The translations under genes and the position numbers were made by a program. The notes under the pieces were generated by a model that saw nothing but the letters and a program-made list of their open reading frames with translations, did no database searches and was not told where the DNA came from. A DNA stretch of 56,204 nt from Nostoc sp. 106C. Lineage in GTDB: Bacteria > Cyanobacteriota > Cyanobacteriia > Cyanobacteriales > Nostocaceae. Of this stretch, positions 10,500 through 54,710 are shown piece after piece (position 1 is the first letter of the stretch; each line of letters starts with the position of its first letter). The DNA lies in NCBI RefSeq assembly GCF_002154725.1, contig NZ_MTAW01000060.1, positions 1-56,204 of the forward strand, in the 5' to 3' direction.

Positions 10500-10676
10500 A
10501 GGCTACTTGTATATAATTTCAGTTAAAAAACTTAATTGAGTTCAACATATTTTAAAAATAATAAAATATTAAATTCAACCTCATCCATGAATTATTTATT
10601 TTATTGCATAGCTTGCTTACCCTAGAGTGAAGAAACGAATTAACAATCGCAAAATCTAGTTTTTTAATTTACAGTT

Positions 10677-28438: not shown

Positions 28439-29902
28439 ATGAAGCATTTCTATCGGTTTTTTAATCCACTTGCCTGGCCGATCGCTGTTAAACTTTCGAC
28501 AGCATTAGTTTCAGCGGTGTTTATACCGATGAGCTTCACCGCCTACTACAACCTACGGCAGAGCTTAGATAGTGTGGAGGCTGGGGAATATCGCAAACTG
28601 GAACTGTTAGCCACTAGTACTGCTAGTCGCCTCGATCAGTTAATTATTGATATCCAGCGTATTGTTGTGCAAGTTAGCAGCGATCGCACTGTACTAAGTT
28701 TTTTAGATGCTAGTAACTCTAGAGAACAAAAAGTCTTTCGTCACGATCTCCAACAAACATTACAAAACCTCTCCCGTTCCAACCCAGACTTTGATGCTGT
28801 TTTTGTCATGAATAAAGAAGGTGTTGCTGTTGCCGCCACCGATTCTAGATTTGTGGGGAAAAACTACGCCTTTCGTGAATATTTCCGCTCTAGCATCCAA
28901 GGTAAGTCCTATGTATCTAGTATCTTGGTAGGTCAAACAACCAGAAGACCAGGAATGTTTTTCTCTCACCCAGTGCGATCGCCCAATGGTGAAATTGTAG
29001 GAGTAATCGTAGTCAAGATTAAAGGTGCAGATATCTGGGCAATTATCAATGCTTTACAAGTAAGCAAGCAGAGCTATGCTTTTCTCATTGACCAGCAGGG
29101 AGTGATTATCAGCCATGCCGATCGATCTCTGCTTTACCATAGCCTTCTTCCTCTGCCCCCAGATACTTTAAAACAGATTGTCACCGATAGACGTTATGGT
29201 CTAGAGCAGATTCCCAGCTTGAACATTCCTGAATTGAAGGTGATGGTGAAAGCCAAACAAGCAGGTCACACTACCTATTCCTATCCACCGCACCAAATGT
29301 TGCGAATAGTTGGCTTTGCTCCCTTGGAACAACAACCTTGGGTATTAGGGATCAGCCAACCCAAAGCACTGTTTGCAATTCCATTGCATCGCCTGATCTG
29401 GCAACATGGCAGCAGTGTGCTGATTGTAGGTGGAATTACAGCAATCATTGCGTTGCTTCTAGCGCGGAGAATTTCTCGACCGATTCACGCACTTACAGAT
29501 GCAGCTCAAGCTTTGGAACATGACAATTTTGATTCTCAAGTACAAAAACTGTATCAAAATTTGGATAAATTAGCTTGTACTCCAGACGACATCGGTCAAT
29601 TAGTGCGAGTCTTTTTACAGATGGCTGAAGAAGTGAGGATGCGACATCAGAAACTAAAAATCCAAGTCAGGGAACTGCACATTGAGATTGATGAAACCAA
29701 AAGAGCTAATAATGTCGCAGAAATTACGGAAAACGAACATTTTCGGCAATTACAACAAAAGATTCACAAGCTCAGAGAACGCAAAGTAACAGCTAGTGAA
29801 ACTGAGACTGATTACTACCACAGATTACAGACTAAGGTGCAATCGATCAAAGAGCGATCGCTAAACAGTGAGGCAGAGATATGTCATCCGCAGACGAACT
29901 AA
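28439..29902 (+). CDS. Cache-HAMP receptor without output kinase
   Basis: A 487-residue membrane receptor. A first helix (about residues 13-36) is followed by an extracytoplasmic double-Cache domain (about 40-315; VMNKEGVAVAATDSRFVGKNYAFREYF and YAFLIDQQGVIISHAD are typical). Then come a second helix (about 325-345), a HAMP domain (RRISRPIHALTDAAQAL) and a long cytoplasmic coiled coil to the end. No histidine kinase, cyclase or methyl-accepting domain follows, so it must signal through a partner. The last 22 bases overlap the start of the next gene, so the two are translationally coupled. The next gene encodes a large membrane protein, a natural partner. The gene heads a plus-strand run leading to the lanthipeptide genes. 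Confidence 0.85.
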   Translation: MKHFYRFFNPLAWPIAVKLSTALVSAVFIPMSFTAYYNLRQSLDSVEAGEYRKLELLATSTASRLDQLIIDIQRIVVQVSSDRTVLSFLDASNSREQKVFRHDLQQTLQNLSRSNPDFDAVFVMNKEGVAVAATDSRFVGKNYAFREYFRSSIQGKSYVSSILVGQTTRRPGMFFSHPVRSPNGEIVGVIVVKIKGADIWAIINALQVSKQSYAFLIDQQGVIISHADRSLLYHSLLPLPPDTLKQIVTDRRYGLEQIPSLNIPELKVMVKAKQAGHTTYSYPPHQMLRIVGFAPLEQQPWVLGISQPKALFAIPLHRLIWQHGSSVLIVGGITAIIALLLARRISRPIHALTDAAQALEHDNFDSQVQKLYQNLDKLACTPDDIGQLVRVFLQMAEEVRMRHQKLKIQVRELHIEIDETKRANNVAEITENEHFRQLQQKIHKLRERKVTASETETDYYHRLQTKVQSIKERSLNSEAEICHPQTN

Positions 29903-32475
29903 TATCACAAGAGGAAGTGCTAGGAGGTTTACCTGCAAAACGAGCGAATACAATACTATTTTTAATCGAGAGTCGAACCGCGCAGTTAGTAGCGCGATCG
30001 CGGGTAGAGTTTTCCCTGACAGAGCAAGCTGCAACAGAGCGCGATGTCGCTTTTTTAGAAGCGTTTGCTTTGGGGAATGCTCCACCACTCCACCCCACAA
30101 TCCAACATTTGGAACGCTACGCGCCTTTTTGGGCATTCCTCGTACCAGAAAACCCCAGATTAAAAGCTGCCATTACTCATGCTTTTAGCCAGAAGTACAG
30201 TTTTACCTATCAAACAGTGCCTCAGATTCGCAAAGCTTTGGGTGTGGATGAGAAAGTAGTGCAGGTAGCTTACTTGCGCTTTTACAAAAAGCAGATATTG
30301 ACTATCTTTAGATCTAATTTGACCCCAATCGAAAAGTGGCGCTGGATGACTGCGGCGATCGCTCTACGTGTGGAATCTCTGCCACCTTTTTGGCTCGCTT
30401 CAATACTTACTGTTGCTTTAGGTCTTCCGCAAGCTTTCTTAGCTTTACCTATAGCTGTTGCGGATATCGGCCCATTAATTACTGTTGTCTTCTTACTGAT
30501 CGTTGGCACTATCAACATCCTCACGATGGCTTGTATGGCAGAAGCTGTTGGTCGCAGTAGCGACTTCCGTTATGGCAACTCTTTTATCAAACAATTAGTA
30601 TCTAATTATTTAGGAAATGTCGGCTCTTTTATACTTTCTTTAGCAGTTGGGATTCGTGTTTTTCTGATTGCATTGGCTTGCTATATTGGTTTATCGTTAA
30701 CAATGGCAAGCTTCACGCCCATACCTGCAACATTGTGGGCAGTATTGTTATTTGGTGCAGGATTGTACTTGCGATCGTCTAAATCCCTAAATTTTACCGT
30801 TGCCTTAATAGTGTTGCTGGCAGCAATTAACCTGAGTTTGCTTCTGGTGCTTTCACTGCTGGCATTCAGCCATCTGCAACTCGACAACTTATTATATGTA
30901 AACTTGTCCTTTCTCAAGGGTCAGTCTTTCCATCCTGGGATGCTACAACGGATTTTAGGTGTGAGCCTCATGCTCTACTTTGGTCATGTATATGTAGGAG
31001 AATGTGGTAAACTCATACTTCCTCGTGACTCTAGCGCCACGTCCTTGATTTGGGGTAGTGTGGCGGGAACAGCTTTTTTAACTGTTCTATTTTGTATTTG
31101 GGTCTTGGCAGTCAATGGAGCAATTTCGCCCCAATTGCTAGCTGGACAATCAGGCACTGTTTTAGAAGCCCTAGCGCTACAAGTAGGTTCCATTGTCACA
31201 GTTTTGGGCGCAGTTTTAGTAACTTTGTTATTAGGAATGGCTTGGCTACGTAGTTCCAGCCTTCTAATCAACTTAGTCAGAGAGTGGTTTCCTGCCCGAC
31301 CACGACCCGTTTTCAAACTACCTCGCCAGCAGGGAATGTTGATATTGCATCCCTCTGGAGACTTTAATCGCGTTCCTCATATTGGTTTAACCTACCTAGG
31401 ATTGGAAAACAACCAAGCAAAGTTTCATCTAGATATTCAGTTGAGTGGCAACCTCCATCATATAGATATTGCATTTACCAAACATTGGGATATTCAAGAG
31501 CTATTAAATCAGTTACCAGACTTAGGCAAATGGGATACTCGTCTGACTCTAGAAGTACGTTCGGCTGATCAAGATAAAGCCTGTCTGCAAGTTACTTCAC
31601 CTATGGGTTTAGTTTACGAAGGAGATTTAAAAGCTGATGTGAGCAATGCTATTGATGAGCGTCACAACCAGACAAGTTACTGGAGAAACATACTCAACCA
31701 ACGTCGTTTGTTTCTATCTATTAGTCCATTATTAGTAGTTTTCTTGCTAACTGAGTGGCTGTTTCTAGCTGGTACGCAATCGTTTACGAGTATACTCGCC
31801 TTTGCTGGTGTACTTGGTAACTCCCTTGTTGGTGGTATTTTTCCGGTTTTACTGTTGGTTTCTAGTCGGCGCAAAGGAGAGCTAACACCTGGAGTATCCT
31901 TCAAGATTCTCAATCATCCATTGTTCAGCGTTGGTATTTACAGCCTCTTTTTAGCCATCCTGCTGGTTCACGGTCTTTTCATTTGGGAAAATTCTGTGGC
32001 GCGAATCTGTGCATTGTCCATTGCTGTCTTGTCATTAGGAGCAACCCTAGTCATGAAGCACTATGGCGCATTTGCTTCCCGTATGGTGGTAGAACTACGA
32101 GAAGACCAGCAGCAAAAAGGACGATCCTTATTCGCTGTGACTGCTGACGGACAACCAAAAATAGCAGAAGTACTGCTGGGATATACCGAGAGCGAGCAGC
32201 ATTATCAAACAGCAACTGTTGAGATACCATCACTCTCATCCTTACGCTATGCCACGTTTTACTTACCAACTATGCGGGAGAAGGAATTGAGAGTTTGGGC
32301 ACACCAAAGTAACTCCCATAGTGATTCCAAAAGTTGGCCAGCATTTGTGGAAGTGCAGAATGGAAAAAAGAATATGCAGTTTGACTTAAAGCTTTCTAAT
32401 GGAAGGATTTTGTTACCTCTAGAGAGCGATCGCTGCTGGTTAAAGTTTACTTTTAGTGAGCGATCGCTGTCTTGA
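29881..32475 (+). CDS. APC-like multidomain membrane protein
   Basis: An 864-residue protein that I cannot place in a named family. Residues about 1-155 are soluble. Residues about 165-460 carry eleven or so membrane helices whose start (ALPIAVADIGPLITVVFLLIVGTINILTMACMAEAVGR) resembles amino acid/polyamine (APC superfamily) transporters. A soluble domain of about 110 residues follows (about 475-585), then four or five more helices (about 600-720) and a C-terminal beta-rich domain. It overlaps the Cache-HAMP gene by 22 bases. It may be a transporter used as a sensor or signalling platform, or an importer of a peptide-related solute; both are guesses. Bulk and domain mix are unusual. Confidence 0.7.
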   Translation: MSSADELISQEEVLGGLPAKRANTILFLIESRTAQLVARSRVEFSLTEQAATERDVAFLEAFALGNAPPLHPTIQHLERYAPFWAFLVPENPRLKAAITHAFSQKYSFTYQTVPQIRKALGVDEKVVQVAYLRFYKKQILTIFRSNLTPIEKWRWMTAAIALRVESLPPFWLASILTVALGLPQAFLALPIAVADIGPLITVVFLLIVGTINILTMACMAEAVGRSSDFRYGNSFIKQLVSNYLGNVGSFILSLAVGIRVFLIALACYIGLSLTMASFTPIPATLWAVLLFGAGLYLRSSKSLNFTVALIVLLAAINLSLLLVLSLLAFSHLQLDNLLYVNLSFLKGQSFHPGMLQRILGVSLMLYFGHVYVGECGKLILPRDSSATSLIWGSVAGTAFLTVLFCIWVLAVNGAISPQLLAGQSGTVLEALALQVGSIVTVLGAVLVTLLLGMAWLRSSSLLINLVREWFPARPRPVFKLPRQQGMLILHPSGDFNRVPHIGLTYLGLENNQAKFHLDIQLSGNLHHIDIAFTKHWDIQELLNQLPDLGKWDTRLTLEVRSADQDKACLQVTSPMGLVYEGDLKADVSNAIDERHNQTSYWRNILNQRRLFLSISPLLVVFLLTEWLFLAGTQSFTSILAFAGVLGNSLVGGIFPVLLLVSSRRKGELTPGVSFKILNHPLFSVGIYSLFLAILLVHGLFIWENSVARICALSIAVLSLGATLVMKHYGAFASRMVVELREDQQQKGRSLFAVTADGQPKIAEVLLGYTESEQHYQTATVEIPSLSSLRYATFYLPTMREKELRVWAHQSNSHSDSKSWPAFVEVQNGKKNMQFDLKLSNGRILLPLESDRCWLKFTFSERSLS

Positions 32476-32524
32476 AAATAGGGAAGGGAGTATGGGGGAC
32501 AAGGGGGACAAGGAGGAAATAACT

Positions 32525-32552
32525 AATGACCAATGACAAATGACAAATGACT
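32525..32552 (+). repeat. Short tandem heptamer repeats
   Basis: Four consecutive heptamers, AATGACC, AATGACA, AATGACA and AATGACT, in the leader of the MinD-like gene. Such short tandemly repeated heptamers are a known feature of filamentous cyanobacterial genomes. Confidence 0.8.
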
Positions 32553-32571
32553 AATACCTAAGAGGTAATAT

Positions 32572-33360
32572 ATGGCACAAATTATTTCAGTTCACTCATT
32601 TCGTGGTGGCACTGGTAAATCAAATCTGATTGCCAACATCGCATCAACTATGACACTCCAAGGACAACGTGTAGGCATTATTGATACTGACATTCAATCA
32701 CCAGGAATTCATGTAATTTTTGGATTTGATGAGAACAAAATGACATATACTCTCAACGACTATTTGTGGGGACGTTGTCATATTCAAGACGTTGCCTATG
32801 ATGTTACTCATAGCCTGATTGCAGAGCAGAAACATCCAACTACAGTTAAGGGAAGCCTTTACTTGGTTCCTTCTAGTATTAAGGCAGGTGAAATTTCCAG
32901 AGTTCTACGTGAAGGGTATGATGTAGTTCGACTCAACGATGGTTTTCAGGAACTCATTCGGACTCTAAAACTGGACTATCTGTTAATTGATACTCACCCT
33001 GGACTGAATGAAGAAACCTTACTTTCTATCGGTATCTCTAATATTCTCATAATTATCCTGCGTCCAGATAATCAAGACTTCCAAGGTACTGCGGTGACAG
33101 TAGATGTAGCTCGCAAATTGAAAGTGCCAAAAATGCTGATGGTAATCAATAAGGCACTACCAGCTTTGGATTTTGCAGACTTGCAAGAACAAGTAGAGAA
33201 AATTTACAACGTTCCCGTAGCTGGAATTTTGCCCCTTTCAGAAGAGATGGTACAGTTAGCAAGCATTGGTATTTTCAGTTTGCGCTACTCTGGGCATCCC
33301 ATCAGTCAGGCAATTAAAGGAATTGCGGAGCAAATTACCAGTTTAGTTGTTAGTCGTTAA
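32572..33360 (+). CDS. MinD/ParA-like P-loop ATPase
   Basis: A 262-residue ATPase of the MinD/ParA (SIMIBI) class. The deviant Walker A is RGGTGKS at residues 11-17, and the conserved IIDTDIQSPG (residues 36-45) and DYLLIDTHPGL motifs follow. An AGAGG site precedes the ATG. MinD/ParA-type ATPases bind ATP as dimers and position or activate membrane-associated cargo. Here the gene stands between an APC-like membrane protein and an HExxH protein, with no ParB or MinE partner nearby, so a role in assembling or switching this membrane system is more likely than plasmid partition or cell division. That role is inferred. Confidence 0.85.
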   Translation: MAQIISVHSFRGGTGKSNLIANIASTMTLQGQRVGIIDTDIQSPGIHVIFGFDENKMTYTLNDYLWGRCHIQDVAYDVTHSLIAEQKHPTTVKGSLYLVPSSIKAGEISRVLREGYDVVRLNDGFQELIRTLKLDYLLIDTHPGLNEETLLSIGISNILIIILRPDNQDFQGTAVTVDVARKLKVPKMLMVINKALPALDFADLQEQVEKIYNVPVAGILPLSEEMVQLASIGIFSLRYSGHPISQAIKGIAEQITSLVVSR

Positions 33361-33430
33361 TTAAAAGATAGAACATAGAAGTCAGAAGTAATTCTCCCTC
33401 TGCTTCCTGTCTAAAAATGAGGCTTACTTT

Positions 33431-34594
33431 ATGATCGATCAGCAATTATTTCGTACTGATGTTCTGACTTACTTCGGAGCAACTGCTGCTCAACTAGAAG
33501 AACTATTGGTATACAACCAAAACATTTTTGAGCGCAACAGCCTTGATTGTGTTCAGTTTCCCTTAAATCCTGAACCCCATGTAGCTACTTGGGAAGAATA
33601 CGCGGTTGCCGCAGAAGTTGTAGGAGCATTTGAGGTACTCAAGCAGCGACTGGTGCAGTTAAAATTTCCGATTCAAGAGGGTATAAGTCAGACTGAGACG
33701 TATCGATCTGCCACTCGTAAGGGCGTTTCAGTAGATGGGATGGCAGAGGCAACTGGTTTAGTCTTGCAACAACCTCAGCAACTCGAGTTAAGACTACATA
33801 AAAGTTTAGCTGGAACTATCCCAGTGTTGTTAGTTAAAAACAGAGAGGATTTTGTCTCTTTAGTACAAGCCCTGACAAAACGAAATGAACCCCACCCGAT
33901 TCCTGCCTCTATGGGAGCCTGTATAGTCCGAGGATTTAACAACTGGGACAGAATTCGTCAGTATCGCCGACAATGGGAAACTCAAAATCCTGGTAATTGC
34001 TCTGAAACTAGCTGGTCAGAAGAGTTTCAACGGTTAATACCGCAAAAACAGCTTTATCAGGATACGTTCATAATTTTGAGTGACGGGTTCTATAGTAATA
34101 TTGGTGCGAGTAACCTGGGACTGGAAGAATCCCAATGGCAGAGATTGTCTCTAACAATTCGGTTGGAACATGAATGTACCCACTACTTCACACATCGCTT
34201 ATTTGGCTCGATGCGAAACAATATATTCGACGAGCTAATTGCCGACTACAGGGGTATTGTAGCCGCTATAGGATATTATCGAGCCGATTGGTTCTTGCAC
34301 TTTCTAGGGTTGGAGTCATTTCCTAATTACCGAGAAGGAGGCAGACTGCAAAACTACCGGGGTCAACCTCCACTTTCCGATCGGGCATTTCAGATTTTAC
34401 AGGCGTTAGTGAAGGCATCTGCCGAAAATTTGCAGCGTTTTCATACTGAATATGCAACTGAAGTAGGTCTCAATAACCAAGCTCAGATATTAGTTGCACT
34501 ATCTTATCTAACGTTAGAGGAATTAGCTGCCTCAGAAGCCACCTTGCGCATCCAAAAAATTTTAAACAATCAATCGACAACCCTCTCCATATAG
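33431..34594 (+). CDS. HExxH zincin-like protein, unknown
   Basis: A 387-residue soluble protein with the metallopeptidase motif HExxH at residues 247-251 (HECTH), followed 17 residues later by Glu268 in FDELIADYRG, which could be the third zinc ligand as in gluzincins. The two halves around the motif (residues 1-240 and 280-387) match no family I recognise. There is no signal peptide, so it acts in the cytoplasm. A GAGG site lies before the ATG. It follows the MinD-like gene by 70 bases and precedes the double CNB gene. A role in processing a protein of the same operon, such as the lanthipeptide leader, is possible but is not shown by the sequence. Confidence 0.7.
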   Translation: MIDQQLFRTDVLTYFGATAAQLEELLVYNQNIFERNSLDCVQFPLNPEPHVATWEEYAVAAEVVGAFEVLKQRLVQLKFPIQEGISQTETYRSATRKGVSVDGMAEATGLVLQQPQQLELRLHKSLAGTIPVLLVKNREDFVSLVQALTKRNEPHPIPASMGACIVRGFNNWDRIRQYRRQWETQNPGNCSETSWSEEFQRLIPQKQLYQDTFIILSDGFYSNIGASNLGLEESQWQRLSLTIRLEHECTHYFTHRLFGSMRNNIFDELIADYRGIVAAIGYYRADWFLHFLGLESFPNYREGGRLQNYRGQPPLSDRAFQILQALVKASAENLQRFHTEYATEVGLNNQAQILVALSYLTLEELAASEATLRIQKILNNQSTTLSI

Positions 34595-34698
34595 CTCTGT
34601 TTGGTAGTTATTGGCATGAGAAAGCCTTTCCCAACAATGATAAAGCACTGCATCTATGTGTTTTTCTGATCCTTAACAAAACATCGGGTAATTCACTT

Positions 34699-35793
34699 AT
34701 GAGAGAAGTTTTACTTAAAGAATTAGCTAACAGTGACATTAATTGGATGATTGCTAAAGGTTATCAAAGAGAAATCGCTCCTGGCACTGTACTCATTGAA
34801 GCAGGAAAAGCTAATGATTGCTTACATATTCTTCTAGACGGCATCTTAACAGTTACTATTTCTCAATCTGACAACAATCCTCTGACTCGTGCTTTTGCAG
34901 CTATCGAAGGAGTTGAAAACACAACTCAAGAAATTGAGAGATTATCTAGTGGTGAGGTTGTGGGAGAAATTCCCTTTGTAAGTATGTACTTAACAGCTAC
35001 TACTGTTAAGGCTGTAGAAAAGTCGTTAATAATATCAATTCCCCAACCAGAATTAGCAACAAAATTGCAGCAAGATGTAGGTTTTACTTCACGCTTTTAT
35101 CGAGCGATCGCTATTATGCTGGCAGATAGACTAGAAAGCATCATCAATCAGCTGGGCCGTAAGAACTTAGCACAAGGTCAGCCACTCAGAGATGTGCTCT
35201 TTATTTTGGGAGAATTACATGATAGCGACATCGATTGGATGATGGGTTGTGGGACTCAGCAAAAAATTCTAGCTAATACTATACTCATTCGTGAAAGTGG
35301 GACTGTGGATGCACTATATATTCTTTTAGATGGAATAATGTCTTTGTCTATTACTGAAGATGAGCGTAATCCCTTAGCACGTGCTTTTGCTGCCATTGAG
35401 GGTAATGAAATTTTCGGTAGAGAAATAGCAAGATTATCGAAAGGCGAAATTATCGGTGAATCACCTTTCATTGATGGTCGTCTACCTTCTGCAACTGTTA
35501 AGACTATTGAAGACTCGATTGTGTTGTCGATTCCGCGACAGCAAATGGCAGCAAAGTTACAGCAAGATGTAGGATTTGCCTCTCGTTTTTATCGTGCGAT
35601 CGCTACTTTACTTTCTAATAGATTGCAAGGACTACACATCCACCTTGGTTATGGTAGGCGAGTTTATAACAAAGGGATGTCATTGGATGAAAATCTTGAA
35701 TATGAAGACGAGTTAAAAGATAGCACTCTGGATGGTATGGCGTTCGCAGGAAAAAGATTTAATTGGATAGTAAGGCAGTTAAAAGTAAGTTAA
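34699..35793 (+). CDS. Double cyclic-nucleotide-binding-like protein
   Basis: A 364-residue protein consisting of two tandem CNB-fold domains (about residues 1-155 and 160-310) and a short charged tail. The repeats align well: LKELANSDINWMIAKGYQREIAPGTVLIEAG against LGELHDSDIDWMMGCGTQQKILANTILIRESG. The phosphate-binding cassettes are degenerate: GEIPFVSMYLTATTVKA and GESPFIDGRLPSATVKT lack the Arg of the usual PRAAT motif. No helix-turn-helix follows, so it is not a Crp-type regulator. It is likely a ligand-independent or altered-ligand scaffold. The second ABC exporter downstream also starts with a CNB-like region, which hints that the two may bind each other. Confidence 0.75.
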   Translation: MREVLLKELANSDINWMIAKGYQREIAPGTVLIEAGKANDCLHILLDGILTVTISQSDNNPLTRAFAAIEGVENTTQEIERLSSGEVVGEIPFVSMYLTATTVKAVEKSLIISIPQPELATKLQQDVGFTSRFYRAIAIMLADRLESIINQLGRKNLAQGQPLRDVLFILGELHDSDIDWMMGCGTQQKILANTILIRESGTVDALYILLDGIMSLSITEDERNPLARAFAAIEGNEIFGREIARLSKGEIIGESPFIDGRLPSATVKTIEDSIVLSIPRQQMAAKLQQDVGFASRFYRAIATLLSNRLQGLHIHLGYGRRVYNKGMSLDENLEYEDELKDSTLDGMAFAGKRFNWIVRQLKVS

Positions 35794-36098
35794 TAATTTT
35801 TTGCGGTATTTCCAGAGTCAATGTTTTCAAAAAAGAAGTGCATTGATTGAAGATGTCGCTAGCTTTCATCAGTTGACGGCAGATTCAAAAACTTTTCAGC
35901 ATTCAATCATGGTTATGAACAGCCATTGTATGTAAATTAATATTGTTCTATTTACTGCCAATTCCAGGATATAAGCCTGTAGAGAATGTTTGATTACAAG
36001 CTAATAAATTTTTAATAAAGTTTTGGATATGGGTGCATCTTTCCTGGTTTTCTCTACTCCTTTTGCTAACTGAAAATAACTAAATATTTGAGGATACA
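35794..36098. other. Spacer before the AraC-type regulator
   Basis: About 305 AT-rich bases with no gene. A GAGGA site lies before the regulator's ATG. The length suggests the regulator has its own promoter. Confidence 0.35.
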
Positions 36099-36887
36099 AT
36101 GAAAAAAATTATGATAATAGAAGACAAGGAAGAAACCCAAAAACTTTTTCTTGAATGCCTTAAAGCTGAAGGATTTTACAGTACAGGTTCCGAAAAAGTA
36201 CTTGTTGGAGTTAAACAAGTACAGGAACAACTACCTGATTGGATAATTTGTGACATTACAATGCCGGAACTTGATGGTTATAGTATCTTGGCCATGGTGC
36301 GACAAGATCCTAATACAGCAATTATCCCTTTAATTGTTGTCATTGGCAGGGAGGCTCAGGCTGATATCTGCAAAGGTATGGAGATGGAAGTAGATGACTA
36401 TTCCACTAAACCTTGTAATTTAAGTGAATTATTGAGAGCGATCGCCGCTTCTCTGGAAAAACAAGCTATTATCAAGCGCTACTGTGCAGCTGAGTCTCAT
36501 CAATTTCTAGTTCCACCACCCACTAATACAGCACACCCTGTCACCTCACAGCCGAGCTTTTCATCTAATTCTCTGTTGAATGAAGTTTTTCAATTCATTG
36601 AAAATAATTACCACCAATCAATTACTCTCCAGGATGTGGCTAAGGCAGTTGGTTACTCTCCAGCTTACTTGACAGACTTAGTCAAACGTCTGACAGGAAA
36701 CACAGTGCAGCGTTGGATTATAAAGCGTAGAATGGCAGCAGCATGTTCCTTACTGCTAGAAACTGACCAGTCAGTAAACCAAATTGCTGAAGCAGTCGGT
36801 TATAACGATAAAAATTATTTTTTTAACCAGTTTCGCCAGTATCACGGAATAACTCCCAAATCCTGGAGAAACAAGCACAGAAATTAG
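36099..36887 (+). CDS. REC-AraC response regulator
   Basis: A 262-residue regulator. The N-terminal receiver domain (1-120) has the acidic pair Glu8/Asp9, the phosphoacceptor Asp52 in CDITMPELDG and the conserved Lys104 in YSTKP. The switch Thr/Ser is replaced by Ile82 (PLIVVIG), so the activated state may be unusual. The C-terminal ~100 residues form an AraC/XylS DNA-binding domain with two helix-turn-helix motifs (ITLQDVAKAVGYSPAYLTDLVKR and VNQIAEAVGYNDKNYFFNQFR). No kinase is adjacent, although the Cache-HAMP receptor upstream lacks an output domain. Standing 333 bases before the precursor gene, it is the best candidate activator of the lanthipeptide genes. Confidence 0.88.
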   Translation: MKKIMIIEDKEETQKLFLECLKAEGFYSTGSEKVLVGVKQVQEQLPDWIICDITMPELDGYSILAMVRQDPNTAIIPLIVVIGREAQADICKGMEMEVDDYSTKPCNLSELLRAIAASLEKQAIIKRYCAAESHQFLVPPPTNTAHPVTSQPSFSSNSLLNEVFQFIENNYHQSITLQDVAKAVGYSPAYLTDLVKRLTGNTVQRWIIKRRMAAACSLLLETDQSVNQIAEAVGYNDKNYFFNQFRQYHGITPKSWRNKHRN

Positions 36888-37220
36888 TTTATTTTTCCAT
36901 AGAAACTCAATAATTTTTAGTTTTATCAAACAATTATTGTCTTTAATTTGGAAATTCTAAACAGTCTAAAATTAACAATGTTACTGGATTTAACTTTAAC
37001 CTAAAGTAAAACATTGTCTCGACAGTAAGCTTTTAGTTTGATTTAAATCCAGGAAATTTATATTTGATATAAAAAACTCAATACAGTAGAAAATAGCAAA
37101 TATAATTACTCAATAAGCAAAACTAAAAAAAGTCTACTAAGACCGAAAAATTATCTAGTGTAAGTGAATAATCTGTCTATTAAACTAATAAGAGTAAACC
37201 TCTAGAAGAGGATTTAATAT
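36888..37220. promoter_or_regulatory. Leader region of the lanthipeptide precursor gene
   Basis: About 330 strongly AT-rich bases between the AraC-type regulator and the precursor gene. The length suits a regulated promoter, and this is where the regulator would be expected to bind. No direct repeat that would mark its site is obvious by eye. Confidence 0.35.
37199..37211 (+). promoter_or_regulatory. Hairpin over the precursor's ribosome binding site
   Basis: CCTCT-AGA-AGAGG is a perfect 5-bp stem with a 3-base loop. The AGAGG half is the Shine-Dalgarno of the precursor gene, nine bases before its ATG. Folding would partly mask it, but the stem is short. Confidence 0.4.
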
Positions 37221-37499
37221 ATGTCTAAATCATCAGCAATAGAATTTGTCAAAGCTACCGATCAAGTTTTGCTAGAGAGGGTTAAGGCTGCTGACAGCCC
37301 AGTCAGTGTAGTCAAGATTGCCGCTGAGTATGGTTATGAACTCACCGAGCGGGAAATGCAAGCTGTCCTGGCAGGGTCTTACATTGCATGGGAAGAGGAT
37401 GAAGAACTGTCCGAGGAGCAGTTGGAGTCTGTAGCTGGAGGTATGATGAAAGAACCCCTAACTTGTTGTTGTGGTGGTAACAGTTGTGTCTGCCAGTAA
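37221..37499 (+). CDS. Lanthipeptide precursor with Nif11-type leader
   Basis: A 92-residue RiPP precursor. Residues 1-74 form a Nif11-like leader: a helical IEFVKATDQVLLERVKAA segment, IAAEYGYELTEREM, an acidic stretch and the ELSEEQLESVAGG end, with the Gly-Gly cleavage site at 73-74. The core is 18 residues (75-92): MMKEPLTCCCGGNSCVCQ. It has five Cys but only one Thr and one Ser, so at most two (methyl)lanthionine rings can form and at least three Cys remain free for disulfides or metal binding. A strong AGAGG site precedes the ATG. The LanM synthetase lies 314 bases downstream, and the C39 peptidase of the first exporter would cut after the Gly-Gly. Confidence 0.92.
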   Translation: MSKSSAIEFVKATDQVLLERVKAADSPVSVVKIAAEYGYELTEREMQAVLAGSYIAWEEDEELSEEQLESVAGGMMKEPLTCCCGGNSCVCQ

Positions 37500-37813: not shown

Positions 37814-40800
37814 ATGAAAATGACTCAAGCAGACCTAATAGAAATTTTTATCAATGCCAGTTCTCTATCTGAACGTCTTAGCAATAAGTTTTTCCAGGTT
37901 AATACTACCCAACTTAATCAAGAGCAAATTAGCGATCGCTTAAGCCACTGGTGTCAGGTCGTTGCTCAGGGTAACTGGGAAAAATTTCAGAAGCGGCTGC
38001 AGTGGGATGGGTTGGATATGGATGCAGTGTGTCCAGTGCTGGGAGATTTGCCTGGTTTGGATAATCAAGCCTTACCAATCTGGGTAGAGACTTTGAGGGA
38101 GATGATTCAAACAGCCTCAGAATTTACCTTTCAGGATAAAGTTACCGATCCTTCCAAAATCCCCATTGACCCTAAAAATCCGCTGCCATTTGAAGACGTG
38201 CTGCTGCCAGCCCTTTTAGTGGCGCGGCAGAAATTATTAACTCGTCTGGGGTATCCGTTATTTTCCTCAAACCATCTGCTCTTAGAACTTCTTTGTGAAG
38301 AAGCGTACCTGAGTCTGGAGCGCAGTTTGCTACAAAGGCTGACCGATCTCTGCTCTAAAACCCTAGAATTTGAATTTTCCCACTTCCGCCCATTTGGGCA
38401 AACTTTACTCAGCTTGCTGGGAAAAGAGAAAGGCACGCCTACCAAAGTACACTACAATGCTTTTGTGCAAAAACTGTTGCAAGATGGGCTGCTAACTTTT
38501 TTCCAGAAATATCCGGTTCTGGCTAGGTTGCTGGCAACCAGCATTGAGTTCTGGGTTGAAGCAACAGCGGAGTTTTTGCAACGCCTAGAAGCCGATCTAT
38601 GCGAAATTCAGCAAGTATTTAATTGCCCCGAACAGACGAAGAAAGAAAATAGAGATTCCAATACACAGATAGGAAAAATCACTAAAATCAAGCCTAGCTT
38701 GTCTGATTTCCATAATCGAGGTCGCACAGTCATTGCCCTCACCTTTGAGTCTGGGCTAAAGCTAGTCTACAAACCCAAAGATTTAACCTCAGAAGTGGCC
38801 TATAACCAGTTTTTAGACTGGTGCAATCAGCGCGGCGTGCCTTTATCTTTTAAAGTGTTCCAGGCGATCAATCGCGGTACTCATGGCTGGGTTGAATATG
38901 TCGAACAACTGCCCTGTGAGGATGAAGCAGCGGCGCAGCGTTTTTATCGACGAGCAGGTATGCTGCTGTGCATTCTGTATACTTTGGGAGCAACTGACTG
39001 TCACCACGAGAATTTAATTGCCAGTGGCGAACATCTGGTGTTGATTGACATGGAAACGCTAATGCACCATGAGGCTAGCGCGTTCGCAGAATCTCCAGAA
39101 GCGACAGAAGCTCAGACTACGGCGAATCAACAGCTCTCAGACTCAGTACTGCGTACTGGGCTGTTGCCGCGTTGGGAGTTTAAAAAAGATAATCGAATCG
39201 CTTACGATGTCAGCGGTCTGCGAAGTTTTGACCCTCAACAAATACCTTGGCGTGTTCCGCGATGGAAGTCAATCAATACAGACGATATGCACTTAGGGTA
39301 CGAGACAGTCGCAGTGAGGCCCCAGAAAAATGTACCCTTTTTGAATAAGGTAGCCCTGTCGCCTAACGACTACCTTAATGAGTTAGTCGAGGGATTTGAG
39401 CAGATGTATCGCTTCCTGATTCAGCAGCAGGAGGCGCTGTTGGCGGCTGATAGTCCTCTGAAAGCTTTTCAAACACAGCAGGTGAGGTTTATTTTCCGCG
39501 CCAGTCAGGTTTATTTTGTAGTTTTACAAAAGACCTTAGTCCCTGAATTTCTCCGGAATGGGGTTGACCGCAGTATTGAACTGGACATTCTCAGTCGAGC
39601 TTTTCTCACATGTCAGGAGCAGCCCAACGCTTGGCCGATTTTGCAGGCAGAACTTAAGGCAATGGAGCAGTTAGATATTCCCTATTTTGGGTCTTCATCC
39701 AATAGTGATGCCCTTACTCTTGGGCTAGAGCAACCCATAGAAAAGTACTTTAAAGAATGTAGCTACAGCAAAGTCATTTTACGGCTGCAACAACTCAATG
39801 AGACGCATCTAGTTCAGCAGGTTGCGCTGATCCAGGGAGCGTTTTATGCCAAAGTAGCGGAGACTTCTGAAATTAAGCAGGTATCAGCCTACAAAACCTT
39901 AGCTCCCAGAGCTACTGATTTGTCACAAATCAGCCCATTAACTAGCGAACAGTTGCTTCAGAACGCTCAAGCCATTGCTCAGGAAATTCAAAAAAGGGCA
40001 ATCTGTGGAGCCGACGGCAGTGTCAACTGGATTGGCTTAAACTATATTTCCAGTGCCGAGCGATACCAACTCCAAGTTATGGGTGATAGTCTCTACGATG
40101 GCAATTGTGGCATTGCTCTGTTTCTCGCTGCTTTAGATCGGGTTACGAGCAACACCCAGTTCCGGAACTTAGCTTTGGCAGCTTTACAGTCAGTACGAAG
40201 GGTTTTGCAGACATCCAATGTGGAGTTTATTCACAGATTCGATCGCCGAATCGGAATTGGTGGAGGTATTGGGCTTGGTTCCATCATTTATTCTCTGGTG
40301 AGAATCAGCCAATTTCTTCAGGAAGAGGTCATCTTAGAAGATGCCTGGCGAGCTGCTAACTTGATCTCGCCCGAAGGTATCGCGGCCGATCAAAAGTTAG
40401 ATGTGATACAAGGAGCAGCAGGAGCAATTTTAGGGCTATTAGCACTTTATACTACAACTGGCGACCCAGCTGTCTTAGATAAGGTTGTGTTATGTGGTCA
40501 GCATCTACTAGAACACCGTATTAGCATCGATAATTACTCAAGAGCGTGGAAAACTTTTGCAGAGAAACCGTTAACAGGTTTCTCTCACGGTGCTGCTGGC
40601 ATTGTTTATGCTCTGTTGCGGCTTTATGTTGTAACGCGGGATAGAAAATATTTAGAGGCAGCTTGTGAGGGAATAGCCTATGAACGGAGTGTATTCTCAC
40701 CAGCTGACGCTAATTGGCCTGACTTCCGTGGCATAGGGCAAAATGACCAACCAAGGTTTATAGCCGTCAATTGGTGTAATGGTGCTCCTGGTATTGGCTT

Positions 40801-41179
40801 GGCACGGGTGGGCGGTTTATCGATTTTAAAGACAGATACAATTTGCCAAGATGTGGAAGTGGCGTTGCAGACTACTCAGAAGTATGGCTTACAGGGAGTA
40901 GACCATCTCTGCTGTGGCAACTTTGGTCGGATAGAGTTGCTGCTGGTGGCAGCCCAAAAACTATCGCGCCCGGATTTACAAGAAACTGCCAAGAAACAGG
41001 CTGCTTGGCTAGTGGCTCAAGCAAAAAGAACAGGTGCTTATCAACTATTTTCCAACTTACAAAACCATGCATTCAGCTCGTTCAACCCCAGTTTTTTCCG
41101 AGGAACGGCTGGGATTGGCTATGAATTGCTAAGGTTGGCTTACCCAGAGACACTGCCTTCAGTATTGCTATGGGAATGA
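37814..41179 (+). CDS. lanM: Class II lanthipeptide synthetase LanM, CCG type
   Basis: An 1121-residue bifunctional lanthionine synthetase. The N-terminal ~700 residues are the dehydratase (DUF4135, kinase-like fold), with KLVYKPKD, LGATDCHHENLIASGEHLVLIDMETLMH and SGLRSFDPQQIPWRVPRW visible. It phosphorylates Ser/Thr of the core and eliminates phosphate. The C-terminal ~400 residues are the LanC-like cyclase, with GFSHGAAG (His925), NWCNGAPG (Cys988) and a CCG motif at Cys1033-Cys1034-Gly. The CCG motif replaces the usual CHG and is typical of the promiscuous ProcM-like clade of cyanobacterial enzymes. It lies 314 bases after the precursor gene and 81 bases before the next gene. Confidence 0.95.
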   Translation: MKMTQADLIEIFINASSLSERLSNKFFQVNTTQLNQEQISDRLSHWCQVVAQGNWEKFQKRLQWDGLDMDAVCPVLGDLPGLDNQALPIWVETLREMIQTASEFTFQDKVTDPSKIPIDPKNPLPFEDVLLPALLVARQKLLTRLGYPLFSSNHLLLELLCEEAYLSLERSLLQRLTDLCSKTLEFEFSHFRPFGQTLLSLLGKEKGTPTKVHYNAFVQKLLQDGLLTFFQKYPVLARLLATSIEFWVEATAEFLQRLEADLCEIQQVFNCPEQTKKENRDSNTQIGKITKIKPSLSDFHNRGRTVIALTFESGLKLVYKPKDLTSEVAYNQFLDWCNQRGVPLSFKVFQAINRGTHGWVEYVEQLPCEDEAAAQRFYRRAGMLLCILYTLGATDCHHENLIASGEHLVLIDMETLMHHEASAFAESPEATEAQTTANQQLSDSVLRTGLLPRWEFKKDNRIAYDVSGLRSFDPQQIPWRVPRWKSINTDDMHLGYETVAVRPQKNVPFLNKVALSPNDYLNELVEGFEQMYRFLIQQQEALLAADSPLKAFQTQQVRFIFRASQVYFVVLQKTLVPEFLRNGVDRSIELDILSRAFLTCQEQPNAWPILQAELKAMEQLDIPYFGSSSNSDALTLGLEQPIEKYFKECSYSKVILRLQQLNETHLVQQVALIQGAFYAKVAETSEIKQVSAYKTLAPRATDLSQISPLTSEQLLQNAQAIAQEIQKRAICGADGSVNWIGLNYISSAERYQLQVMGDSLYDGNCGIALFLAALDRVTSNTQFRNLALAALQSVRRVLQTSNVEFIHRFDRRIGIGGGIGLGSIIYSLVRISQFLQEEVILEDAWRAANLISPEGIAADQKLDVIQGAAGAILGLLALYTTTGDPAVLDKVVLCGQHLLEHRISIDNYSRAWKTFAEKPLTGFSHGAAGIVYALLRLYVVTRDRKYLEAACEGIAYERSVFSPADANWPDFRGIGQNDQPRFIAVNWCNGAPGIGLARVGGLSILKTDTICQDVEVALQTTQKYGLQGVDHLCCGNFGRIELLLVAAQKLSRPDLQETAKKQAAWLVAQAKRTGAYQLFSNLQNHAFSSFNPSFFRGTAGIGYELLRLAYPETLPSVLLWE

Positions 41180-42376: not shown

Positions 42377-43825
42377 ATGTTAGACCAAAAGCACAGCCTA
42401 TTCCGAAAAGAGTCGCTGGAGCGTCTATCGTCTCCTGAAAGACTAGACCTACTGATGCAGGTCGTCAGTCCCAGAAATTGGCTACCTGTTGTTGCTTTGG
42501 GTTCGATTATGGGAGTAGCTTTTATCTGGAGTATTTATGGACGCATTCCCATCACCGTAGAGGGTCGAGGTGTACTGATTTACCCAAACAACGTTGTACC
42601 ATTGCAATCAAAAAGTGCAGGGCAGTTAATGACTCTCAACATCAAAGTTGGAGATTTCATTAAAAAAGGGCAGGTATTAGCAATCATTGACCAAGCTGAA
42701 CTTCGCAAGCAACTGCAACAGCAGCGACTTAAACTTAGAGAACTAGAATCACAAGACCAAGCAGTTGGTTCACTACAAGGGTTAAGACTGAAGCAGGAGG
42801 AGCGATCGCAACAACAACAACGCCATTATCTCCAGCAACGTATACTGGAACTACAAGCCATAACGCCTCTTTTAAAAACTAAAGGCAATACCTCTATTAC
42901 GCAACAACGTCAAGGCTTACAGGAACGTCTACGGCAAGCCCAAGCATTGACTCCTATCTTTCTCAAGAGAATGGAAATTCGCAGACAGTTATTCAAACAA
43001 GCAGGAGCGATTTCTGGTGATGAGGCTCTCAAAGCAGAACAAGAGTACCTAGAGAACTTGGCAAAAATTGCTGACATCCAAAATCAACTTAAAGAACTAG
43101 ATTTAAAGGAGATCCAAACAGAAAAAGATTATCGTCAAAACCTCAGTACCATCTCTGATTTGCAAGCTCAACTCAAAGAACTAGATAGCAAACAAGCCGC
43201 AGCAGCTCAAAAAGACTTAGAAGATGCTACTAACCGAAAGAAAGAGATTCAAGAAGCCAAGCGAGAAATTGCCAAACTAGAACTGCAAGTAGGCGATAAT
43301 AGCCTGATTATTAGCCAATATAGCGGACGCATTTTAGAAATTACGCTAACACCAGGACAGGTTGTTAACGCTGGTACTCGCTTGGCAACTATAGAAGCAG
43401 AGAATCCTAAAAGTAAGTTAGTTGGTGTTACCTATTTTCCAGTAGCAGATGGCAAGAAAATTCAACCTGGTATGACAATACAAATTACTCCCCAAACCGT
43501 CAAGCGGGAACGCTTTGGCGGCATTGTGGGTAATGTCACCAGCATCTCCCGGTTTCCGATTACAAAGGAGGCAGCCGTCTCGGAGGTAGGTAATTCAGAA
43601 GTAGTGGAAGCTTTGATATCTGAAAAACAAGCAGGTTTGATCCAAGTATTCTCTAACCTCAATTTAGATACCAACACACCCAGCGGCTACAAGTGGTCTT
43701 CTTCCACCGGGCCAAACATGAAAATCTCTTCTGGAACTACCACTGTTGTAAGAGTCAAGGTAGAAGAACGCGCTCCCATCACCTTCGTTTTACCAATTTT
43801 GAGGTCTGTTAGTGGTATCTATTAA
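42377..43825 (+). CDS. NHLM-type HlyD family secretion protein
   Basis: A 482-residue periplasmic adaptor protein of the HlyD/membrane-fusion family, in the NHLM bacteriocin-system branch. One membrane helix (residues 35-54) is followed by a split lipoyl domain (SAGQLMTLNIKVGDFIKKGQVLAIID and, later, YSGRILEITLTPGQVVNAGTRLATIE) around a long coiled coil (about 105-305). The C-terminal beta domain contains KIQPGMTIQITPQTVKRERFGGIVG. It connects the inner-membrane ABC exporter to an outer-membrane channel. It starts six bases after the upstream gene and overlaps the C39 exporter gene by 14 bases, so the three are co-translated. Confidence 0.9.
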   Translation: MLDQKHSLFRKESLERLSSPERLDLLMQVVSPRNWLPVVALGSIMGVAFIWSIYGRIPITVEGRGVLIYPNNVVPLQSKSAGQLMTLNIKVGDFIKKGQVLAIIDQAELRKQLQQQRLKLRELESQDQAVGSLQGLRLKQEERSQQQQRHYLQQRILELQAITPLLKTKGNTSITQQRQGLQERLRQAQALTPIFLKRMEIRRQLFKQAGAISGDEALKAEQEYLENLAKIADIQNQLKELDLKEIQTEKDYRQNLSTISDLQAQLKELDSKQAAAAQKDLEDATNRKKEIQEAKREIAKLELQVGDNSLIISQYSGRILEITLTPGQVVNAGTRLATIEAENPKSKLVGVTYFPVADGKKIQPGMTIQITPQTVKRERFGGIVGNVTSISRFPITKEAAVSEVGNSEVVEALISEKQAGLIQVFSNLNLDTNTPSGYKWSSSTGPNMKISSGTTTVVRVKVEERAPITFVLPILRSVSGIY

Positions 43826-46073
43826 CTCTACCTTAGTAACATCGATTAATCCTGGGGAGTACTTGCAAAAACTACTGCCGCACAGAACCATTCGGGTAAA
43901 AACCCCCACTCTCCTCCAAATGGAAGCAGTAGAGTGCGGTGCTGCGGCTTTGGGAATTATTTTAGGTTACTACGGTCGAATTGTACCACTGCCACAACTG
44001 CGGAGAGATTGCGGAGTGTCCCGCGATGGCAGTAAGGCATCTAATATGCTGAAAGCCGCCAGGAACTATGGACTTCAAGCTAAAGGCTTTAAAAAAGAAC
44101 TAAACCAACTTCAAAAACTGCGCCCTCCCTATATTGTTTTCTGGAACTTTAACCATTTCCTTGTAGTAGAGGGATGGAGCAAACAGCGAGTTTTTCTCAA
44201 TGACCCCGCCACAGGGCCGCGTCATGTATCTTTACAGGAATTTGACGAGGGGTATACTGGTGTAGTACTGGTAATAGAACCAAGCACAGAGTTCAAAAAA
44301 GGTGGTTGCAAGCCTAGCATGATGCTATCTTTAGCTTCACGGCTACGTGGTGCTGAGGGTGCTTTAGCTTACTGCATAATCACAGGATTCTTCTTGACTA
44401 TGGTTGGGTTGGTAGTACCCGTGTTTAGTCAAGTATTTGTAGATGATATCCTGGTGCAAGGACGACACTTATGGTTGCATCCTTTACTTTTGGCCATAGC
44501 GATCGCGGCTCTACTCCAAGGGTCACTAACGTTACTACGGTTACGTTACTTACGCAGATTAAAAATCAAACTTTCTGTAGGTATGTCCAGTCGCTTCCTC
44601 TGGCACATCCTGCGCTTACCTGTAGGCTTTTACGCTCAACGATTTGCTGGAGAAATCAGTAACCGCAGCACTCTCAACGACGAAGTTGCCGATGTGCTAT
44701 CAGGAAAGTTGGCAACGACAATTATTGATACATTTATGGTAATTTTCTATACTCTAGTTATGGTGCAATATGACTGGATACTTAGCTTGATTGTGGTGAG
44801 TTTTGCTGCTGTCAATGTCCTAACGTTACAGAGGATTTCCCGACAACGCATAGATGCAAATCAACGATTGATACAAGAATATGGTAAAGCTGCTGGCATG
44901 TCGATTGCTGCTTTGCAAAGCATAGAAACGCTCAAAGCATCAGGGTTGGAGTCAGATTTCTTTTCGCGGTGGTCGGGTTATTACACAAAGGCGCTAAATT
45001 CTCAGCAGGAATTAGGGCTAACAAACCAGACATTCTCAGTTTTACCGATGCTCCTATCTGCCCTTTCTGCGATGTTGTTGTTGGTTGTTGGTGGTTTACG
45101 AGTAATGGATGGACATCTCAGCATCGGAATGCTCATCGCCTTTCAAGGTTTGATGTTCAACTTTCAAGAGCCTGTAAATAATCTTGTCAATTTTGGAACT
45201 ACTCTTCAGGAGTTGGAAGGGAATTTGATTCGTCTTGATGATGTGCTAGATAATCCAGTAGGTGAAGGGTATCAGAGAGCTAAGGAAGTAAATTCTTCCT
45301 CATCCCCTCCTACCTCTTCTGCTCATTCATCCTCTTATCTTCTGCCGAAATTACAGGGATATGTGGAGTTGCGAAACGTCACATTTGGTTATAGCTATCT
45401 AGAACCGCCGTTAATTGAAAACTTTAATCTTGCAATTAAACCAGGACAGCGAGTAGCTTTGGTAGGTGGAAGCGGTTCTGGCAAGTCTACTATTGCCAAA
45501 GTAGTTAGTGGACTTTATCAACCTTGGGCAGGAGAAATTTGTTTTGACGGTAAACCAAGAGAACAAATTCCCCAAGAACTATTTACTAACTCTGTGGGAA
45601 TGGTGGAGCAGGAAATTTTACTGTTTGGCGGCACAATCAGAGACAATTTGACTCTTTGGGATACAACTGTATCAGAAAAAAATCTCTTGCGGGCTTGCGA
45701 AGATGCAGCGATCGCTGATGTAATTTTCTCTATGTCTGGGGGATTGAATAGTGAACTGATAGAAAGTGCTGCTAATTTGAGTGGCGGTCAGCGACAACGT
45801 CTAGAAATCGCTCGCGCTTTAGTAAATAACCCATCTATCCTGGTGATGGATGAAGCCACTAGTGCTTTAGATGCAGAGACTGAAAAAATCATTGACCAAA
45901 ATCTCCGCCGTCGGGGATGTACTTGCATAATTATCGCTCACCGATTGAGTACGATTCGAGATTGCGATCAAATCATTGTCTTAGAACGAGGCAAGATAGT
46001 ACAACGAGGTACTCACCAAGAATTACGGCAAGTTGAAGGTTTCTACTCGCGCTTGATTCGTACTGAAGAGTAG
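43812..46073 (+). CDS. NHLM-type peptidase/permease/ATPase exporter
   Basis: A 753-residue ABC exporter with an N-terminal C39 peptidase. The catalytic Cys42 lies in QMEAVECGAAALG, with His115 in NFNHF and Asp131 in LNDPATG, so the enzyme should be able to cut the leader after Gly-Gly. The transmembrane region spans about 165-450. The ATPase has GGSGSGKST (Walker A), LSGGQRQR (signature) and ILVMDEATSALD (Walker B). It exports the modified lanthipeptide while removing its leader. The GTG start overlaps the end of the HlyD gene by 14 bases. A MITE copy lies directly after it, before the second exporter gene. Confidence 0.93.
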   Translation: MVSINSTLVTSINPGEYLQKLLPHRTIRVKTPTLLQMEAVECGAAALGIILGYYGRIVPLPQLRRDCGVSRDGSKASNMLKAARNYGLQAKGFKKELNQLQKLRPPYIVFWNFNHFLVVEGWSKQRVFLNDPATGPRHVSLQEFDEGYTGVVLVIEPSTEFKKGGCKPSMMLSLASRLRGAEGALAYCIITGFFLTMVGLVVPVFSQVFVDDILVQGRHLWLHPLLLAIAIAALLQGSLTLLRLRYLRRLKIKLSVGMSSRFLWHILRLPVGFYAQRFAGEISNRSTLNDEVADVLSGKLATTIIDTFMVIFYTLVMVQYDWILSLIVVSFAAVNVLTLQRISRQRIDANQRLIQEYGKAAGMSIAALQSIETLKASGLESDFFSRWSGYYTKALNSQQELGLTNQTFSVLPMLLSALSAMLLLVVGGLRVMDGHLSIGMLIAFQGLMFNFQEPVNNLVNFGTTLQELEGNLIRLDDVLDNPVGEGYQRAKEVNSSSSPPTSSAHSSSYLLPKLQGYVELRNVTFGYSYLEPPLIENFNLAIKPGQRVALVGGSGSGKSTIAKVVSGLYQPWAGEICFDGKPREQIPQELFTNSVGMVEQEILLFGGTIRDNLTLWDTTVSEKNLLRACEDAAIADVIFSMSGGLNSELIESAANLSGGQRQRLEIARALVNNPSILVMDEATSALDAETEKIIDQNLRRRGCTCIIIAHRLSTIRDCDQIIVLERGKIVQRGTHQELRQVEGFYSRLIRTEE

Positions 46074-54575: not shown

Positions 54576-54710
54576 CAGCGATTCCTTATTGGCTTTGGGT
54601 ATGGATATAGCAGCTTGGTATAGAGATTGTATCGTTAATCTTTTGCTGAGATATTTAACGACAGCAAAATTACATATTGGCTTTAAATCTCCCAAAGACA
54701 GTTCAAATCA

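Follow-up and report, generated by a model that had tools for sequence, protein, structure and literature searches.

A co-inherited five-gene unit beside a Nostoc lanthipeptide cluster, and a receptor tail that tracks a MinD-like ATPase

The NHLM/NHLP cassette for export of ribosomally synthesised and post-translationally modified peptides (RiPPs) is described in PMC2887384, in the part of its text available to us, as a transport trio (TIGR03794, TIGR03796 and TIGR03797) together with precursors and modifying enzymes. Here we analyse a stretch of DNA from Nostoc sp. 106C that shares with this cassette the HlyD-like protein, the peptidase-ABC transporter, the second ABC transporter, a Nif11 precursor and the lanthipeptide synthetase LanM. 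The stretch, called the window below, is one entire contig of 56,204 nucleotides (NZ_MTAW01000060.1; G000:C210 in our numbering) from an 8.66-Mb assembly. Our subject is the run of genes ahead of its precursor, lettered A (receptor), B (membrane protein), C (ATPase), D (DUF7005), E (cyclic nucleotide-binding, or CNB, protein) and F (regulator with receiver, or REC, and AraC domains). A, B, C and D go unmentioned in the available part of PMC2887384, from which the words MinD and cyclic nucleotide are also absent. Two-CAP_ED proteins were noted in cyanobacterial bacteriocin clusters in 2011 (PMC3140520), and E is a full-length member of this group (TIGR03896); partners of the A-D kind are unmentioned in the available part of that paper, which does not contain MinD, ParA or metalloprotease. 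The lanthipeptide cluster, the exporter and the E family are not what is new at this locus; they are already known.

Other described systems resemble single components. The signalling helix (S-helix; PMC1592074) is, like the C-terminal tail of A, a helical segment downstream of sensor and HAMP domains in many receptors; according to the available part of that source it stands almost always between two signalling domains, whereas the A-type tail is, in the examples seen, mostly a protein end and tracks one ATPase family. Nucleoside triphosphate-dependent conflict systems, as far as the available part of PMC7159879 describes them, place MinD/ParA-like proteins in regulated multi-gene systems of complex bacteria, and one peptide-processing system among them is linked to CRP-like genes. 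Their MinD/ParA domains are called inactive there, whereas the P-loop of C is intact in 74 of 76 homologues, and HAMP and Cache are absent from that part of the text. In the open-licence literature we found neither the five-gene unit A-E nor the pair of tail and C in print, part of the listings being partial and the evidence of absence weak. Nothing was found there for DUF7005, TIGR03896, PF22541 or 'bacteriocin-type transport-associated', nor for an operon of MinD/ParA with a HAMP sensor in cyanobacteria, and no sensor-MinD pair is described in the listed titles and opening abstracts. For MinD together with CHASE2, the available part of PMC8195603 gave no MinD passage and the other matches were medical by title; in the parts available, MinD is not in the text of PMC4558948, nor are cyclic nucleotide and metalloprotease in that of PMC13060382.

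Based on our results, we consider it rather probable that positions 28439-35793, genes A to E, serve cyanobacterial NHLM-exported RiPP clusters as a co-inherited control unit, in which signalling from A to C would make lanthipeptide processing and export depend on a ligand. The genes concerned, and the cluster that follows them, are these:

28439..29902, + strand: A, dCache_1-HAMP receptor of 487 residues, without a kinase or cyclase domain among its Pfam matches
29666..29866, + strand: tail of A, residues 410-476, a shared 39-residue block with a looser repeat of it; the site where C is proposed to dock
29881..32475, + strand: B, membrane protein of 864 residues with about 12 hydrophobic segments (counted from a hydropathy plot)
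32572..33360, + strand: C, MinD-like ATPase of 262 residues, P-loop RGGTGKS
33431..34594, + strand: D, DUF7005, predicted zinc metalloprotease
34699..35793, + strand: E, TIGR03896, two CNB domains
36099..36887, + strand: F, REC-AraC response regulator, a frequent yet variable partner
37221..37499, + strand: Nif11-leader precursor of 92 residues, Gly-Gly followed by a Cys-rich core (TIGR03798, 49 bits, cut-off 32)
37814..41179, + strand: LanM, class II lanthipeptide synthetase (TIGR03897, 1030 bits, cut-off 304)
42377..43825, + strand: NHLM HlyD-like secretion protein (TIGR03794, 529.6 bits, cut-off 156.2)
43812..46073, + strand: NHLM-type peptidase-ABC transporter (C39 119 bits, ABC 108 bits; assigned by these Pfam domains, the TIGR03796 model itself not having been run)
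46446..49340, + strand: NHLM second ABC transporter (TIGR03797, 1057 bits, cut-off 709.4)

The layout agrees with a sequence-only reading made earlier by a model, which had described six same-strand genes 5' of the precursor: all six open reading frames were found on the + strand, A and B share 22 bases (29881-29902), and the next three gaps, put at about 70-105 bases, measure 96 (B-C), 70 (C-D) and 104 (D-E) bases. They are followed by 305 bases between E and F and 333 between F and the precursor. The overlap is not general, as A and B stand without it in loci L005, L006 and L007.

To place this arrangement among relatives, a scan with D gave 77 loci (50 cyanobacterial and 27 other), in which members were called by fixed similarity thresholds, and 243 genomes drawn from the order were sampled. 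D is present in 34 of these genomes and B in 10; 31 of the 34 DUF7005 genomes yielded 33 sample regions, that of the window and two that hold fragments (G127 and G154) being left out. The two sets overlap, with six D proteins in both, and loci L047 and L048 share one D protein. All five genes A-E occur in 20 of the 50 cyanobacterial loci, with nine further loci holding A, C, D and E, five C, D and E, one D and E, and 15 D alone. At each of the 11 B places in the sample, which lie in 10 genomes (eight near full length, one of these with a stop, and three decayed), C and D follow on the same strand. Pairwise distances among A-E correlate at r 0.82-0.92 across 20 five-gene loci (the window and 19 others), against r 0.33-0.40 with HlyD (15 loci) and 0.52-0.75 with ABC1 (14 loci). 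As the co-variation within A-E is stronger than with the exporter genes, A-E is inherited as a unit while the neighbouring exporter genes are exchanged more often, and the repetition of the gene set in dozens of other loci makes the layout more than chance.

The fetched stretch includes NHLM exporter genes at 31 of the 50 cyanobacterial and 15 of the 27 other scan loci, as do 23 of the 33 sample regions. The 15 other loci include Chloroflexota, Desulfobulbaceae, Firmicutes and Saprospiraceae records, and one of the 27 has C. An exporter gene or LanM is found at 29 of the 34 cyanobacterial scan loci with C and at 17 of the 20 with B, while none of 15 fetched C loci without D and E has NHLM exporter genes (among 20 C loci without D, L093-L097 were chosen because E is nearby). 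The expectation that these genes travel together, mostly with a RiPP cluster, is therefore upheld by the 29 of 34 loci, and homologues scattered or mostly far from such clusters were not what we saw. Clustering of this kind might also reflect co-transfer only, the genes being kept together as a mobile RiPP island with no joint function. The lower co-variation of the exporter genes with the unit, suggestive of shuffled cassettes, fits such a history, as does the decay of B in three of ten genomes; order and strand are, on the other side, kept across wide divergence, the arrangement A-C-LanM-D-NHLM recurs in Anaerolineae, and the tail of A and C co-occur even when they are not neighbours and are fused in three proteins. 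We regard co-transfer alone as very improbable.

The tail provides the second line of evidence. When A was used as a query against the neighbours of several C homologues distant from D, the match was limited to a short stretch, which is the C-terminal tail of about 39 residues, present in A as one good and one looser copy. A tail model was built from 17 proteins chosen adjoining C or D, a small share of the 150 tail places counted; their consensus is xxxLxIEIDxxKKExQVAEITxSDYFxxLQxKAxxLR, with D9, F26 and L29 invariant. The profile found the tail beside C in CHASE2, FHA-GAF, Tll0287-HAMP, dCache-HAMP-PAS, PAS and CNB proteins (domains by Pfam), and it is present on at least eight sensor types.

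Tail and C occur in the same genomes. Both are present in 90 of the 243 genomes, C only in four, the tail only in one and neither in 148 (phi 0.96; C in 94 genomes and the tail in 91), compared with control values of phi 0.35 for D and tail, 0.34 for C and D, and 0.49 for E and tail (from 61 E genomes). The C homologues occupy 139 places, a count that includes fragments and in which two pairs of pieces were merged, and the tail lies within 5 kb of at least 85 of them, 82 of these on the same strand, against an expectation of about 0.001 per place. D lies within 3 kb at 24 of the C places, and at 19 of these a tail is listed no farther than 5 kb away. In a second draw, of 244 genomes from the phylum and partly shared with the first, C is present in 35 genomes, including all 33 that have the tail; the 12 tail genomes not seen in the first draw all have C. 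Tail and C are moreover fused to each other and to a phosphotransfer/receiver-like part in three open reading frames of 712-735 residues (L135:5126-7261, L136:3077-5233 and L137:2908-5112), and the one of the three that was run through Pfam has two HisKA stretches, REC and a HAMP-like stretch before the tail. Outside cyanobacteria, the Anaerolineae contig L054 carries a dCache-HAMP-tail receptor of 503 residues directly 5' of a C homologue; next come LanM, a pair of glycosyltransferase-like genes, a 171-residue gene, DUF7005, and then one HlyD-like and two ABC genes, which means that receptor-tail, C, LanM, DUF7005 and NHLM recur at least once beyond the cyanobacteria. On L067, also from Anaerolineae, the tail sits on an ECF-S-like membrane protein after DUF7005-HlyD-ABC-ABC, with no C homologue in the fetched 11 kb. 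These comparisons argue strongly that receptor A and ATPase C are linked through the tail, a link that the sequence-only reading had missed together with the shared tail itself.

Several further observations concern tail and C proteins. Two CHASE2-type proteins (L091:10612-12966 and L086:5991-8306) carry seven to eight tail repeats in their C-terminal part. The minus strand of L099 encodes, at 6889-10646, a C homologue and after it a glutaminase and a dCache-HAMP-PAS-tail sensor, and at L135 and L137 a second multi-receiver protein with a tail adjoins the fusion gene. The source genome itself has a second pair of sensor-tail and C, of the Tll0287-HAMP type and with no DUF7005 there (G000:C212:143896-144883, L082:7967-9884), and a third tail at C163, a contig for which no C homologue is listed.

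C was described beforehand as a MinD-like ATPase, which its matches bear out (AAA_31 58 bits, ParA 63 bits); its closest solved relative by profile is MinD (1hyq, E 2.8e-22). It was rejected as MinD proper, scoring 52.6 bits against the TIGR01968 cut-off of 212.9 and 85.7 against the TIGR01969 cut-off of 201.8. Its P-loop, RGGTGKS, has Arg at the usual place of the signature Lys of the MinD/ParA deviant Walker A motif, and the same replacement is found in 74 of 76 distinct C homologues, the two exceptions being one with RHGTGK and one without its N-terminus.

MinD-type ATPases dimerise on ATP and bind membranes, and ParA-like partners of chemoreceptors exist, for example PpfA-TlpT. C may accordingly be read as a ParA/MinD-type positioner that clusters A and the exporter, for instance at septa or filament poles, the tail being a cargo tag with no signal from A to C. 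This is the strongest rival of a switch, though we hold it to be doubtful. C aligns over its full length with MinD structures and is a MinD relative; a cargo tag could well be repeated, as in the CHASE2 proteins; and tail proteins of the FHA-GAF and CNB types, which are without a membrane sensor domain, would fit one. C differs from the known positioners in its Arg, its scores under the MinD cut-offs and its link to a sensor tail. Two observations speak against mere positioning: the proteins examined have their tail behind a sensory domain, often directly after HAMP, which is the usual place of a receptor's effector, and one fusion joins a HisKA-REC-HAMP region via the tail to C.

A switch would have a precedent in the bacterial tyrosine kinases (BY-kinases) with split transmembrane activators, such as CapA/CapB and TkmA/PtkA, in which the short cytoplasmic tail of a receptor docks on and activates a MinD-fold P-loop partner. 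The likeness lies in a membrane protein's short cytoplasmic tail with such a partner adjacent or fused to it, and by this analogy the A tail may dock on C and switch it. C is nevertheless no BY-kinase: besides its RGGTGKS P-loop, it has a DxD motif followed by I-Q, scores 35.1 bits against the TIGR01007 cut-off of 108, and shows no C-terminal Tyr cluster in an alignment of 19 sequences. In ten neighbours of C that were scanned for a shared effector, no common family was found; they comprise two NPCBM_assoc proteins (from one locus), two TPR proteins, and CHAT, Tll0287-HAMP, RRXRR, pentapeptide, glutaminase and flavoprotein members or no family. In PADLOC, C and E gave matches, all of them partial: C by its ATPase part (best E 1.5e-11) and E by its CNB domains (best E 9e-16, TIR effectors). 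A, B and D gave none, and we read no defence system from the C and E matches. We give even chances to the broader proposal of a general kinase-free pair in cyanobacteria and some Anaerolineae, in which a portable tail of about 39 residues, carried by dCache-HAMP, CHASE2, FHA-GAF, PAS, Tll0287-HAMP, CNB and ECF-S-like sensors, would dock on and switch one family of MinD-like ATPases with an Arg-type P-loop; in the window the pair would have been recruited to gate lanthipeptide processing and export. There is a real chance that tail and C constitute a new kind of signalling pair.

A itself conforms to the description of a Cache-HAMP receptor with no kinase: Pfam finds dCache_1 (90 bits) and HAMP (34 bits), with neither HisKA/HATPase nor any other catalytic domain among its matches, and the kinase families that match in NCBIfam cover the sensor and HAMP parts alone, far under their cut-offs. 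dCache domains bind small ligands outside the membrane, and HAMP relays the change. We therefore propose the following course of events for the control unit. The dCache domain of A would sense an extracytoplasmic ligand, and HAMP would pass the change to the C-terminal helical tail, which may bind C and switch it from a free form to a membrane-bound ATP form, probably a dimer, and back. Once bound, C could organise or energise an inner-membrane complex of B (where present), E and the NHLM exporter. E would be a scaffold of CNB origin in which the usual nucleotide-binding Arg is lost, and D, as a predicted zinc protease, might trim or destroy the precursor or its leader at this complex. Lanthipeptide processing and export would in this way depend on the ligand, and F may add transcriptional control. 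That the output is peptide processing or export is suggested by the location of the unit and by D and E. A role in sensing and in a membrane complex, as first suggested, fits these data.

D was known as an HExxH protein, and indeed has HECTH at residues 247-251. It matches DUF7005 (PF22541) over its full length (584.5 bits, gathering score 27), its nearest named relatives are from Nostoc (87-88% identity), and all 44 aligned sequences have H247, E248, H251, E268 and D272, of which E268 is the putative third zinc ligand. Its structural model is confident (predicted local distance difference test score, pLDDT, 94.7). Zinc peptidases such as ERAP2, collagenase H and an M60 domain, among 50 listed fold matches, gave TM-scores of 0.20 or less and were not used.

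E, called a double degenerate CNB protein, does have two CNB stretches that lack the phosphate-cassette Arg, the residue that normally binds the cyclic nucleotide phosphate. It matches TIGR03896, 'bacteriocin-type transport-associated', over its full length (400.5 bits, cut-off 161). Across 11 aligned members, 21 of the 22 domain copies lack the Arg, and only the L043 protein has it, in its first domain (the second domain of L047 was read by eye, the other 21 copies by script). The sequence-only reading had held that none of the six genes is standard in a class II lanthipeptide cluster. Because E belongs to TIGR03896 and D lies beside exporters, including 15 of the 27 loci outside cyanobacteria, this was wrong for E and misleading for D; co-travel stood, and the fixed membership of F did not, so that the earlier interpretation is supported in part.

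B had been labelled APC-like, which could not be confirmed, as there is no relevant Pfam and no PDB match. No Pfam or NCBIfam family matches B, sequence searches with B and with its first membrane block found nothing in the PDB, and at E<=10 three weak Pfam families alone appear, in one to three of 21 members. B is absent or decayed in several lineages. Its dispensability, as seen in loci with A, C, D and E and in the decayed copies, suggests an accessory role. Decayed B genes stand beside C, D and E at G046:C1:5305758-5306411, G162:C8:3999-4438 and G175:C14:172-1281, and loss of B appears to be ongoing in some lineages. A B relative of 284 residues (L144:1441-2292) matches the start of the membrane part and a C-terminal stretch only, and may be a partial gene or a compact form.

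F has the REC domain and AraC helix-turn-helix ascribed to it, but it is no fixed member of the module: of 59 loci that have both C and D, drawn from scan loci and sample regions alike, 24 have a relative no more than 9 kb from D, and in 22 of the 24 it is 5' of A, compared with 3' of E in the window. The idea of a single operon of six genes and precursor was dropped, F being variable. No terminator-like match is listed on the + strand between E and 37199, and a promoter scan, with 21 matches against 22.1 expected, was at chance level and was not used. On the minus strand at 49860-54695, ending near the exporter, lies a 1611-residue protein that by eye resembles a multi-PAS hybrid histidine kinase; stretches related to it precede a REC-AraC gene in several loci, and it could be a partner of F. 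Upstream of A and divergent from it, on the minus strand at 25218-27860, is a large TPR-rich CHAT-like protein (family by eye).

The cluster downstream has LanM and a leader-type precursor and is a class II lanthipeptide cluster. The putative precursor core 3' of Gly-Gly has five Cys and only one Thr and one Ser, leaving few residues for LanM to dehydrate. Between LanM and HlyD, a gene for 369 residues (41261-42370) has no Pfam or NCBIfam match and has relatives in 8 of the 77 scan loci. In that part of the window's genes which was scanned, none was named as a LanFEG-type immunity gene. This would suit a unit for immunity or envelope stress, in which A would respond to lanthipeptide, whether self-made or foreign, the membrane would be protected by C and B, and stray peptide would be degraded by D, with no gating of export; the place of A-E mostly inside RiPP loci, and a membrane protein with a predicted protease, would suit such a role too. 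Outside cyanobacteria, however, D lies beside NHLM exporters with C in a single locus of 27, which better suits a general processing step, and 115 of the 139 C places have no D within 3 kb. We judge the immunity role unlikely.

The proposal of a ligand-dependent control unit must itself be set against a number of results that weigh against it. The same 115 C places mean that the pair of tail and C does not by itself imply peptide export. The co-occurrence of tail and C has a Fisher P value of 1.4e-60 in which kinship is ignored, with no correction for phylogeny; as the proteins of the tail model were picked beside C or D, a small part of the adjacency arises by construction. Up to 54 of the 139 C places are without a listed tail within 5 kb, as are five of the 24 with D nearby, and at locus L021 a tail protein occurs together with D, with no C in the stretch. 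D stands without the remaining members in the 15 cyanobacterial scan loci given above, and the exporter is not in the fetched stretch at 19 of 50 cyanobacterial loci, 12 of 27 others and 10 of 33 sample regions, where some contigs end early. A further NHLM cluster of the source genome (C101) includes TIGR03896 and ABC2, yet DUF7005 and B each occur only once genome-wide, which makes the A-E unit optional for such clusters. Of the structural models, that of B by AlphaFold2 (21 aligned sequences) has a pLDDT of 43, shows beta regions at this low confidence and serves for rough topology at most, and that of D has no PDB match with E<=0.001 by Foldseek (72 matches at E<=10).

In many bacterial receptors no output domain can be recognised. 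Should the pairing of tail and ATPase prove real, an output would be assigned to a whole class of such cyanobacterial receptors, and the 39-residue tail would be a simple handle for finding and testing more of them. For NHLM-type RiPP clusters, the unit would add sensing, a probable protease and a membrane partner, which could help explain why such clusters may be silent in culture.

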